A stretch of DNA of 41,320 nucleotides from an uncultured Chloroflexus sp. (lineage in GTDB: Bacteria > Chloroflexota > Chloroflexia > Chloroflexales > Chloroflexaceae). The stretch covers positions 1 to 41,320 of the forward strand of contig NZ_CAKZNK010000081.1 of assembly GCF_937129525.1 (NCBI RefSeq), read 5' to 3'. The notes beneath the pieces were generated by a model. The model was not told the origin of the DNA. It worked only from the letters and a program-made list of their open reading frames with translations, and did not search any database. Position numbers and translations under genes: made by a program. Each line of letters begins with the position of its first letter. The first letter of the stretch is position 1. Below are positions 8,637 to 41,213 of this stretch, one piece after another.

Positions 8637-9164
8637 CTACTGACCACTCATCTGGCGAGCAATCTGCTGTCGCTCTTCAGCAGTGACCAGGCCAAAACTA
8701 TCGCCACGATTGAGATAGACAATTTCCTCATTCTTGATTCCAACGATCAGATCCGGCAAAGCATCGCTATTCAGATCGGCCAATCGCATAACGATCGGGG
8801 TCAAATCCTCGTTTGCGCCAACCAGATACGGCCCAACTAGCGCGCGCGTCTTGCTCACGTCACCGCCGGGAATTTCGAGGATCAGCACCTGCCGATCAAG
8901 ATTCATTGCAATCAAGCGTGTTGGCCCAACCTTCTCTTCAGCGCGACCAACTTCCGCCGTCAGATGAAAAGTGCGTGGTCGCCCATACCGCCAGTCGTCA
9001 ACAATCACCTGCCCCCAGCTAATCACAGCGCTTACCAGTACGTATAGCGCAAGTATTGCCAGCAAACCGGTTACGAGATACGCCGTGTTGCTGAACGTTG
9101 ACGCAGGCACGGCAATTGAAGAGACCCGGCGCGGCGAGCGGATTTCGCGACTCGTCACAGCCAT
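8637..9164 (-). CDS. Single-pass membrane protein with a short VCBS/FG-GAP-like segment
   Basis: A 175-residue protein. Residues 1-20 are basic, a single transmembrane helix covers about 22-44 (TAYLVTGLLAILALYVLVSAVI), and the rest should be outside the membrane. The tail contains LADLNSDALPDLIVGIKNEE, resembling one FG-GAP/VCBS calcium-binding repeat (D-x-N-x-D-x-x-P-D). Function unknown. The ATG at 9164 has a strong GGAGGA ribosome site. It has a consensus promoter (9226-9254) flanked by two copies of a LexA-like palindrome, so it may be controlled together with the divergent recN. Confidence 0.65.
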   Translation of the reverse strand: MAVTSREIRSPRRVSSIAVPASTFSNTAYLVTGLLAILALYVLVSAVISWGQVIVDDWRYGRPRTFHLTAEVGRAEEKVGPTRLIAMNLDRQVLILEIPGGDVSKTRALVGPYLVGANEDLTPIVMRLADLNSDALPDLIVGIKNEEIVYLNRGDSFGLVTAEERQQIARQMSGQ

Positions 9165-9193: not shown

Positions 9194-9207
9194 AGAACAA
9201 AAGTTCT
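9194..9207. promoter_or_regulatory. LexA-like operator, copy 1 (GAAC-N4-GTTC)
   Basis: AGAACAAAAGTTCT is palindromic in its arms; the minus strand reads GAACTTTTGTTC at 9206 to 9195. It lies just downstream of the predicted transcription start of the membrane-protein gene, a typical repressor position. The 12-mer recurs exactly at 40693-40704. The arms equal those of the Gram-positive LexA box (CGAAC-N4-GTTCG). Confidence 0.5.
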
Positions 9208-9225
9208 TTAGCTCACTTGTTCGAA

Positions 9226-9254
9226 AGTATAGCAGAGGTGTCGTCAACTGTCAA
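9226..9254 (-). promoter_or_regulatory. Consensus promoter of the small membrane-protein gene
   Basis: A perfect -35 TTGACA (9249-9254) and -10 TATACT (9226-9231) on the minus strand are 17 bp apart, the same hexamers and spacing as the rRNA promoter. Such a strong promoter on a minor gene suggests repression, consistent with the palindromes on both sides. Confidence 0.85.
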
Positions 9255-9267
9255 GAACTTTTGTACT
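9254..9267. promoter_or_regulatory. LexA-like operator, copy 2 (one mismatch)
   Basis: GAACTTTTGTAC (9255-9266) differs by one base from copy 1 on the opposite strand. It abuts the -35 of the minus-strand promoter and lies about 54 bp upstream of the recN extended -10, so it could influence both directions. Centre-to-centre distance from copy 1 is 60 bp. Confidence 0.4.
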
Positions 9268-9317: not shown

Positions 9318-9326
9318 TGGTACAAT
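9318..9326 (+). promoter_or_regulatory. Extended -10 promoter of recN
   Basis: TGG-TACAAT (9318-9326) is an extended -10 element without a clear -35. A start near 9333 gives a leader of about 39 nt to the recN ATG at 9372. Confidence 0.5.
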
Positions 9327-9371: not shown

Positions 9372-11132
9372 ATGCTGATTGAGTTGCAGATTCAGGATTT
9401 TGCCATTATTGACCGGCTGCATCTGCGCTTTGAGCAGGGCTTTAATGTGCTGACCGGTGAGACCGGTGCCGGGAAGTCGATCATTATCGACGCCCTCGGC
9501 ACGCTACGCGGCGAGCGGGTTGATCCCACCTTCGTGCGCGCCGGATGTGCGCGCGCCCGCATCGAAGGCATTTTTAGCCTGGATGACTGCCCTCAGATTC
9601 TTCCACTGCTGGCCGAGCTTGACTTGCTTGATGAAGGCGACGATCAGGTGATTCTGACTCGCGAGATTTCAGCCGAATCGGGCCGCAGTGTAGCCCGTGT
9701 GAACGGGCGCGCTGTGAATAGTGCCAAGCTGCGCGAGATTGGTAGCTGCCTCATCGACATCCACGGCCAACACGAAGGTCAATCATTGTTCAACACACGC
9801 ACGCATATCGACCTGCTTGATCGCTTCGGTGAATTGTTACCGTTGCGTCAGCAAGTAGCCGATCAGTTAACAGCGTTACGGGTTGTACAGGCGCAGTTGG
9901 CCGACCTCCGCGCAGGCGAAGCGCGCCGTCAGGCCCGGATCGAAGAACTCAAGATGCTGCGCGCCGATGTGGCGGCTGCTAAACTCAAACCAGGCGAAGA
10001 GGAAGCCTTGTTGCGCGAACGGGCCATTGCGCAGAACGCGACCAGAATCGCGACACTGGCCGATGAAGCGTATCGAGCGCTGTATACCGGCAGTGACGGG
10101 CGTAGTGGCCGGGCGGCTATCGAGGCGATGGCGCTGGCGGTTGATGCATTGAACGAACTTGCCCGACTCGATGATCGGGCCGGGCTGCTGGCGCAGCAAG
10201 CGACCGAATTGCATTATCAGCTTGAAGAGCTGGTGATTGCCTTGCGTCGCTATCGCGCCGATCTTGATGTCGATCCGCGACGACTCGACGCGATCGAAGA
10301 CCGCCTGACCGCACTGCGCGATCTCCAACGCAAGTATGGCGTTGATCTGGAAACGTTAATCAAGCAGGCGGCTAATGCCGAAGCTGAGATCGAGCAGCTC
10401 AGCAACAGCGCCGAGCAAATTGCTCGTCTGGAAGAGCAGGCGCAGGTATTAATAGCCGAACTGGCTCGCCATACTGCCGAACTATCGCGACGCCGACGAC
10501 AGGTAGGCGATGAGCTGAGTCGTCTGATCAGCGAGGCTATGCACGATCTGGCGATGCCGAATGTGCGCTTCGCGGTACAGATCGAACACGTCGAAGATCC
10601 CAATGGTCTGCCGATTCACGATCGGCGGCTGGTATGCGACCGTACCGGCATTGATCGGGTTGAGTTTTTGATTTCGCCTAACCTCGGCGAGCCGCTTAAA
10701 CCGTTGGCCCGCATCGCTTCAGGCGGCGAAAGCGCGCGCCTGCTGTTAGCGTTGAAATCGATTTTATCGCAGGTCGATGAAGTGCCCACCCTGGTTTTCG
10801 ATGAGATCGATGTCGGTGTCGGCGGTCGCGCCGGGCATGTGGTTGGGCAGAAACTCTGGGCGATCAGTCAGCGTCATCAGGTGCTGTGCATTACTCACCT
10901 GCCACAAGTCGCTGCGTTTGCAAATGCCCACTTTCACATCCGCAAAGAAGTGGTTGCAGAACGCACACGCACCAGTGTAACGCTCCTGTCGCCAGACCAG
11001 CGGGTTGAAGAAATTGCCGCAATGCTTGATGGCATTCCCAATGATCACAGTCGAGCCAACGCGCGTCAGATCCTCGAACGAGCGCAGGCCTGGAAGTTGC
11101 ACCGACAGATCGAGCTAGCCGCAAAAGATTGA
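9372..11132 (+). CDS. recN: DNA repair protein RecN
   Basis: A 586-residue SMC-like ATPase acting in double-strand break repair. The N-terminus (MLIELQIQDFAIIDRL...) is canonical, with the Walker A loop GETGAGKS at residues 29-36. The middle (about 150-390) is a long coiled coil rich in Glu, Arg, Ala and Gln. The C-terminal lobe has the ABC signature ASGGESAR, Walker B TLVFDEIDVGVGGRAG and the H-loop region CITHLPQVAAFA. Length is normal for RecN. The frame begins with a TTG at 9354, but family alignment and the promoter support the ATG at 9372. recN is a classical SOS gene in many bacteria, and the divergent intergenic region has two LexA-like palindromes. Confidence 0.95.
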   Translation: MLIELQIQDFAIIDRLHLRFEQGFNVLTGETGAGKSIIIDALGTLRGERVDPTFVRAGCARARIEGIFSLDDCPQILPLLAELDLLDEGDDQVILTREISAESGRSVARVNGRAVNSAKLREIGSCLIDIHGQHEGQSLFNTRTHIDLLDRFGELLPLRQQVADQLTALRVVQAQLADLRAGEARRQARIEELKMLRADVAAAKLKPGEEEALLRERAIAQNATRIATLADEAYRALYTGSDGRSGRAAIEAMALAVDALNELARLDDRAGLLAQQATELHYQLEELVIALRRYRADLDVDPRRLDAIEDRLTALRDLQRKYGVDLETLIKQAANAEAEIEQLSNSAEQIARLEEQAQVLIAELARHTAELSRRRRQVGDELSRLISEAMHDLAMPNVRFAVQIEHVEDPNGLPIHDRRLVCDRTGIDRVEFLISPNLGEPLKPLARIASGGESARLLLALKSILSQVDEVPTLVFDEIDVGVGGRAGHVVGQKLWAISQRHQVLCITHLPQVAAFANAHFHIRKEVVAERTRTSVTLLSPDQRVEEIAAMLDGIPNDHSRANARQILERAQAWKLHRQIELAAKD

Positions 11133-40247: not shown

Positions 40248-40493
40248 TTACCGGGTCTTGCGAACAACAAAGCGGGTATAGCCTTGCTCGGGGAACGCAC
40301 CGATAAACTCGTGCCCCGCTTTCTGCACCCAGATCGGAATATCTTTTGCCGAACCGGGATCGCTGGAAAGAACGGCGACAACTGAGCCAACCGGCACGCT
40401 TTTGATGCCGCGGATCAGTTCCATCATCGGACCAGGACAATGGCTACCGCGAGCGTCGATCTCTTTGTCGATGGTAATGTGAGGGGTTGTCAT
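40248..40493 (-). CDS. TusA/SirA-like sulfur carrier protein
   Basis: An 81-residue cytoplasmic protein with the TusA fold. The signature CPGPMMEL holds the persulfide-carrying Cys19, followed by the helix and the strand GSVVAVLSSDPGSAKDIPIW and the FVVRK end. TusA-like proteins hand sulfur between sulfurtransferases; next to SQR a role in sulfane-sulfur handling is more likely than tRNA thiolation. AGGAGA precedes the ATG. The gap to sqr is 171 bp without an obvious gene, so co-transcription is probable but not certain. Confidence 0.9.
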   Translation of the reverse strand: MTTPHITIDKEIDARGSHCPGPMMELIRGIKSVPVGSVVAVLSSDPGSAKDIPIWVQKAGHEFIGAFPEQGYTRFVVRKTR

Positions 40494-40506
40494 TGTTGTC
40501 TCCTGT

Positions 40507-40559
40507 GGTCAACATTGACCATTAAGATTCCTCGTGACAACTATAGCATGTATGCTATA
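40507..40559 (-). promoter_or_regulatory. tusA-sqr control region with two palindromes
   Basis: TATAGCAT-GT-ATGCTATA (40542-40559) has perfect 8-bp arms and overlaps an extended -10 on the minus strand (TGC-TATAGT, 40548 to 40540). A second palindrome, GGTCAA-CA-TTGACC (40507-40520), lies in the transcribed leader. The first is well placed for a repressor that blocks RNA polymerase. Confidence 0.55.
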
Positions 40560-40681
40560 CGTTCTGCAGAAAGAAGCGACAACATATTCTGTGCAGACTG
40601 CAACCATTGCCGGCGCGCGTAATTGAGTTCTGGACAAGGACGCCAGGGGGAGAGAATCTTTACAATCGACCGGGACGCAGC

Positions 40682-40710
40682 TTGACAATTACGAACTTTT
40701 GTTCGATAAT
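40682..40710 (+). promoter_or_regulatory. Promoter of the DUF1801 gene with an internal LexA-like box
   Basis: TTGACA (40682-40687) and GATAAT (40705-40710) are exactly 17 bp apart. The spacer holds CGAAC-TTTT-GTTCG (40692-40705), a perfect inverted repeat whose arms equal the Gram-positive LexA box. Its core GAACTTTTGTTC is identical to the site at 9195-9206. A repressor bound here would occlude polymerase. Confidence 0.65.
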
Positions 40711-40739
40711 TTCAAGCAATAATGAAAGAGGAAAGCCAC

Positions 40740-41213
40740 ATGAAGCGTGAAAAGCAATCAACTGAAGACGACGATCAGAGCGGATTCTCGGCGGCAGAGC
40801 GGGCAGCAATGCGCGAACGAGCCAAAGAGTTGAAGGAAGCCTCGCGCCGACGCGGAAAGGGTTCTGGCGCCGATGACGTGAACGCAGTGCTTGAAAAGAT
40901 TGCTGAAATGCCGGAACCAGATCGAACGCTGGCCACTCGCCTGCACGAGATTATCATGACCAACGCCCCAATGCTAGCGCCGCGACTCTGGTACGGAATG
41001 CCGGCATACGCGCTGATGGGCAAGGTAATCTGCTTCTTCCAAAGCGCACAGAAGTTTCAGACCCGTTACGCCACCCTTGGGTTTTCGGATAGCGCCCGGC
41101 TCGATGACGGCGCAATGTGGCCCACCGCTTTCGCCGTGACCGGGCTTACTCCGGAAGTCGAAGAACACATCGCTGCGCTGGTGCGACGAGCGGTGGCGAG
41201 TGAGCAATCATAG
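40740..41213 (+). CDS. DUF1801 family protein
   Basis: A 157-residue cytoplasmic protein. The first ~45 residues are charged and probably disordered ([22 protein letters not shown]). The rest matches the DUF1801 fold (YdhG-like, sometimes called iron chaperone): [35 protein letters not shown] with the conserved Trp-Tyr-Gly-Met-Pro, and [21 protein letters not shown]. No catalytic role is established. The ATG at 40740 has GAGGAAA at good spacing; an ATG at 40722 is possible. The promoter contains a LexA-like palindrome, so DNA-damage control is suggested. The remaining 107 bp of the window show nothing. Confidence 0.75.

Follow-up and report, generated by a model that had tools for sequence, protein, structure and literature searches.

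Does the palindrome inside the promoter of a DUF1801 gene in an uncultured Chloroflexus sp. act as a LexA operator, and does it place this gene in the DNA damage response? The window, that is, the whole stretch of 41,320 nt analysed here, is one entire contig of a 4.48-Mb genome, and its end lies just 3′ of the DUF1801 (YdhG-like) gene (40740–41213, plus strand), which was assigned by the Pfam DUF1801 model and a fold match. The promoter of this gene has a −35 hexamer TTGACA (40682–40687, plus strand) and a −10 hexamer GATAAT (40705–40710, plus strand) spaced by 17 bp, and the 14-bp SOS/LexA-type box CGAACTTTTGTTCG (CGAAC-TTTT-GTTCG; 40692–40705, plus strand) occupies the spacer, with base 40705 being both the final G of the box and the first base of the −10 hexamer. 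The candidate operator therefore overlaps the promoter elements, in exactly the arrangement that the first-pass annotation had described. The ATG at 40740 was preferred to the mechanical ORF start at 40722, because a putative Shine-Dalgarno stretch (GAGGAAAG, 40728–40735, plus strand) stands before it and alignment with relatives supports this start. Upstream and divergent lies a TusA-like sulfurtransferase gene (40248–40493, minus strand; NCBIfam TusA 44.6 bits, below the cut-off of 78), a neighbour common to this genome and to the genus genomes G005 and G002 at ~99% protein identity. A frame that by eye looks membrane-protein-like stands between the TusA-like and DUF1801 genes in G005 and G002, and it is missing here (40494–40721).

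To what extent could such a motif arise by chance? The 12-bp pattern GAACNNNNGTTC was found twice in the window, at 9195–9206 (GAACAAAAGTTC) near recN and at 40693–40704 (GAACTTTTGTTC), the two being identical on opposite strands. This bears out the earlier statement that the core equals a site near recN, read on the other strand. The accompanying judgement that chance recurrence is unlikely stood in part: the core does occur twice, but shuffled windows held a mean of 0.50 GAACNNNNGTTC sites and 7/100 shuffles held at least two, so recurrence in the window alone is weak evidence. Across the own genome, perfect GAAC-N4-GTTC sites showed no enrichment (44, compared with 52 of the reversed control), and the motif alone therefore proves little; the exact 12-mer of the DUF1801 box occurs there four times. 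By crude gene calls, 15 of the 44 sites are intergenic, including all seven that have an all-A/T spacer, a class for which the reversed control pattern gave three sites in the own genome and 16 against 37 when the eight genus genomes were summed. For five of these seven sites, one or more other genus members also have a site before the homologous gene or frame; the targets are an FG-GAP gene and its paralogue, DUF1801, a kinase-like gene and an open frame of ~100 aa. Recurrence in other genus members was not seen for the sites at C127:57745 and C82:134.

Imperfect matches were evaluated in the same manner. For the Chloroflexota orthologues, use was made, among the matches listed, of 24 with new loci and of the first 60 without, in E-value order; L392, a repeat of L025, was not counted. 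The upstream regions of 103 DUF1801 genes held nine GAAC-N4-GTTC sites with at most one mismatch, no more than eleven control palindromes did (2–9), and two perfect ones versus 0–1 for the same controls. At 80 named loci, nine sites with at most one mismatch were found versus a shuffle mean of 4.7. We therefore draw no argument from near matches, and the matrix result given below rests on the gap in scores.

The LexA protein and its own operators served as the reference. A single LexA_DNA_bind match was found in the own genome, in a 235-aa open frame whose translation contains AG, GQSM and VTLKKF; we take these to be, in turn, the cleavage site, the Ser motif and the Lys motif of LexA, and the protein looks cleavable. 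All eight genus lexA promoters read GAAC(AAAC or ATCC)GTAC-TTGACA-AAACAAGTGTTC followed by TATAAT, with the second box lying within the spacer, like that of the DUF1801 promoter, and in all seven recA promoters read, two G.AC-N4-GT.C boxes lie around the −10 (recA of G002 was uncounted, its match being a fragment). A matrix trained solely on these genus lexA and recA operators placed its best position upstream of lexA in 30/30 non-genus lexA loci, which represent 30 genomes from 53 non-genus genomes, with scores of 10.6–16.5 at 66–405 bp. Over the whole window the top four positions of this matrix were 9193 (15.2), 9253 (15.2), 40691 (14.1) and 9209 (13.6), the fifth scoring 9.1; the DUF1801 box thus ranks third among all window positions as a match to the genus lexA and recA boxes. 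In other DNA, 1.77 positions per 100 kb scored at least 13, a background rate that is, if anything, too high, because the presence of the motif had been the reason for choosing some of the loci.

The same architecture was found in a distant Chloroflexota family, f58, in which the lexA promoters of 6/6 genomes (chosen from 52; four of the six have a DUF1801 box and two do not) hold a box between TTGAC[AT] and TATACT/TATCAT. The box in the lexA promoter of G436 (L396) is ACGAACAAAAGTTCGT, which contains the exact 14-mer of the window, read on the other strand. Based on the rank under the lexA/recA-only matrix, the f58 lexA boxes and the recurrence before DUF1801 genes detailed below, the 14-bp palindrome is likely a LexA operator, and the SOS-type reading of the first-pass annotation is well supported. 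The six f58 loci (L393–L398) also have a second lexA box, GAACAWATGAGC, after the −10, whose asymmetric GAGC arm resembles that of GAACAAGTGAGC at 9211–9222, a recurrent imperfect site. As a separate observation, the recA matches of G027, G031 and G032 fall in two pieces ~1 kb apart within one open frame of 715–732 aa, an arrangement suggestive of a recA intein.

We then asked how widely the box accompanies the gene. DUF1801 orthologues were found in 18/61 genomes, own included, and in 164/400 Chloroflexota; within the genus, 6/8 genomes have the gene. Scored with a ten-family matrix that leaves the DUF1801 sites out, strong boxes precede the orthologues of the own genome (17.9), G005 (16.9) and G003 (19.2), and no box was found before those of G002 (5.4), G004 (1.2) and G007 (0.8). 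The own and G005 boxes are perfect and that of G003 has one half-site mismatch; in G005 and G003 the box closely follows the −10 instead of occupying the spacer. There is some circularity in this matrix, as the same pattern had served to find six of its site families; the lexA/recA-only matrix is the clean test. Among the 103 Chloroflexota upstream regions, five scored 16.9–20.3 with the ten-family matrix (own, G005, G003, G059 and G398), and the other 98 reached at most 11.2 within 150 bp and 12.6 within 200 bp; shuffles expect 0.023 per 103 at ≥16.5, and 0/300 column-permuted matrices reached five. Seventeen more loci of the G398 family added three at ≥14 (L390, 24.2; L382, 15.3; L379, 14.2), and the box was thus found before DUF1801 at 8/120 Chloroflexota loci and was absent at 112/120.

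The position of the strong sites was also counted over larger stretches. The DUF1801 loci of 59 relatives (194 kb) contain nine sites scoring ≥14, of which seven lie within 170 bp upstream of DUF1801 and two elsewhere (L030 and L308), compared with one in 100 kb of recN loci, 19 in 93 kb of lexA loci and one in 87 kb of recA loci, that one before recA. The named-locus set, the best 80 of 519 and including many that are actinobacterial by label, has perfect boxes at three loci (L211, L283 and L290) and matrix scores ≥11 at seven (L211, L212, L234, L274, L277, L283 and L290), six of them labelled Chloroflexota and the seventh, L274, labelled Deltaproteobacteria with a promoter nearly that of L212. 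Here L211 was taken as the G005 locus and L212 as that of G059, the promoter being the same within each pair; L390 repeats the L290 promoter. By eye, plausible −35 and −10 elements flank the box in the own genome, L212/G059, L274, L290/L390, L234, L382 and L379. Conservation in orthologous promoters, the check proposed with the original observation, therefore gave a divided answer: the box is strong at three of six genus orthologues, but absent at the other three and at most loci of the phylum. The control of DUF1801 looks real but patchy, as if it had often been lost or repeatedly gained. Because a perfect site occupies the promoter and similar sites stand at scattered distant relatives, the gene is probably part of the damage response. 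At L024–L026, L030–L032 and L034, DUF1801 lies closely 3′ of a gene ending in ...GGW.WILSNMKTLLETGEP..., presumably SRPBCC/AHSA1-like, with no SOS box directly upstream.

What might the product contribute to such a response? The protein matches Pfam DUF1801 (PF08818) at 25.1 bits, just below the cut-off of 27.2; among orthologues, those at L019, L290 and L283 score above the cut-off and those at L022 and L309 below it. NCBIfam gave no match for three DUF1801 proteins, and a sequence search of solved structures returned no convincing relative (best E 0.49). A structure model of middling confidence (pLDDT 72, pTM 0.58) was built from 36 sequences; L277, which has an internal stop, was kept out of alignment A3. 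The model matched B. subtilis YdhG (2oc6; Z 10.8, rmsd 2.5, 101 aligned, ~11% identity), a YdhG-like protein from Listeria with the title frataxin (9t2w; Z 10.6, rmsd 2.6, 102 aligned) and 2kl4 (Z 9.8), the hits from rank 4 downwards having Z ≤6.7, and the best Foldseek E-value was 3.0e-3. The product is thus predicted to adopt the bacterial frataxin-like fold of YdhG over residues 52–163, with an extra N-terminal helix. YdhG is described as resembling frataxin, interacting with IscU-type proteins and stimulating Fe-S cluster formation (PMC10855754). By this likeness, the DUF1801 product may help to provide or retain iron or Fe-S clusters while the cell recovers.

The twin site at 9195–9206 had been attributed to recN, and this attribution did not hold, since the site belongs mainly to a divergent gene for an FG-GAP-type membrane protein (8637–9164, minus strand). 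In this gene's promoter (9226–9254, minus strand), TTGACA (9254–9249) and TATACT (9231–9226) are spaced by 17 bp; the box GAACTTTTGTAC (9255–9266) lies directly upstream of the −35, as box 1 of lexA does, the matrix-detected GAACAAGTGAGC (minus strand) lies downstream of the −10, and the 12-bp core is in the leader. The site is ~30 bp before the FG-GAP gene versus ~165 bp before recN (SMC_N by Pfam; 9372–11132, plus strand), whose −10-like TACAAT (9321–9326) is ~55 bp past the nearest box. A perfect GAAC-N4-GTTC precedes the FG-GAP gene in 7/7 genus genomes read, and where this gene is ~15 kb (G003) or ~0.85 kb (G006) from recN the box is found at the FG-GAP gene, the 420 bp before recN in these two genomes holding no box at ≤1 mismatch (the recN upstream region of G002, which ends at a contig end, was uncounted). 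We therefore rejected recN as the main owner of the site and, by comparison of homologues, regard the FG-GAP gene as the likely owner of the boxes at 9195–9266; recN may still be affected by them in the other genomes. A Pfam scan of the gene's longer frame and an NCBIfam search of the protein gave no match, and the name was taken from the homologue L036. This gene with three LexA-type boxes is a candidate for an unstudied SOS gene family. The FG-GAP homologues at L036, L178, L191 and L199 in the genus also have perfect boxes.

Further boxes of this type were noted in the genus. In seven genomes a box lies between TTGAC(A/G) and a −10 (L061, at 1311 on the minus strand, L180, L188, L189, L193, L195 and L203), and a basic open frame of ~100 aa (MLSW...) can be read behind it in six of the seven. 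The one tested, that of L203, had no Pfam match; it could encode a small SOS protein or a leader. A Ser/Thr-kinase-like gene likewise has a LexA-type box close to its promoter, both in the own genome (L015:1499–1514) and in G002 (L182, 498 bp before the homologous start).

Several other explanations were weighed against LexA control of DUF1801. A chance origin of the palindrome, in a promoter rich in A+T, would agree with the genome-wide site count, which does not exceed that of the reversed pattern, and with the half of the genus orthologues that have no box; yet a matrix trained independently of this site ranks it in the window's top four, seven of the nine strong sites in the relatives' loci stand upstream of DUF1801, and the box fits the −35/−10 spacer perfectly, so that we think chance an unlikely source. 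Alternatively, the box may bind another regulator, for example a second LexA/XRE-type repressor, and the gene would then be controlled, but not by DNA damage. The support for LexA is the resemblance of sites, and some relatives do encode further proteins matching the LexA DNA-binding model; the own genome, however, has the single match described above, and the same exact 14-mer stands in a lexA promoter, making this quite improbable.

A real box could also have the divergent TusA-like gene as its target of consequence, as the two genes share a control region and the box is 211 bp from the TusA-like start. Against this, the box fills the spacer of the DUF1801 promoter, and in G005, where another frame separates the two genes, it stays beside DUF1801; we consider this very unlikely. 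LexA control of DUF1801 is the reading that we hold with good confidence: a LexA operator at 40692–40705, through which LexA would repress the frataxin-like gene until DNA is damaged, with a product that would aid iron or Fe-S metabolism. Bound to this site, a LexA dimer would mask the spacer together with the −10 edge and so exclude RNA polymerase from the promoter; upon DNA damage, RecA-stimulated self-cleavage of LexA would release the operator, and the frataxin-like product could then support Fe-S enzymes or hold iron.

A broader proposal is tentative and rather doubtful: Chloroflexota may have repeatedly recruited a frataxin-like protein into the SOS response, such that damage switches on iron or Fe-S handling, with the genus also placing SOS-type operators on FG-GAP membrane proteins and the ~100-aa frame. 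If this were true, iron and Fe-S handling might limit Fenton chemistry or rebuild Fe-S repair enzymes. LexA control of DUF1801 would extend the predicted SOS regulon to a class of genes whose products have a frataxin-like fold and, if the iron role holds, would link DNA damage directly to iron and Fe-S management; the comparisons also provide a working LexA operator model for Chloroflexota. Our search of one paper library found no paper joining DUF1801 with LexA; judged by titles, none treated a Chloroflexota SOS regulon or Chloroflexus LexA; by title and abstract start, none linked YdhG to DNA damage; and by title, among the matches listed, none concerned LexA control of frataxin. A 2012 comparative study worked on other groups and left Chloroflexi, with further groups, aside, on the grounds that in the omitted groups well-defined motifs for LexA were missing and/or complete genomes were too few (PMC3323433).

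The Gram-positive-type LexA/SOS box of Bacillus subtilis and Mycobacterium is given in the same study as GAAC-N4-GTTC (PMC3323433). The DUF1801 box agrees with it in both half-sites, the 4-bp spacer and the placement over the promoter, and the genus lexA and recA genes have related boxes; it differs in its TTTT spacer, where most boxes have an A..T core, and at the second base the genus recA boxes are less strict (G[TC]AC). Compared with the YdhG/DUF1801 frataxin-like proteins (2oc6), the product shares the predicted fold of residues 52–163, whereas the low sequence identity, the extra N-terminal helix, a Pfam score just under the cut-off and the SOS-type operator set it apart. Known core SOS genes include lexA, recA and recN. 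Unlike these, the DUF1801 gene encodes no recombination or repair enzyme and is sporadic in the phylum, but it shares with the genus lexA and recA the operator class and its overlap with the promoter.
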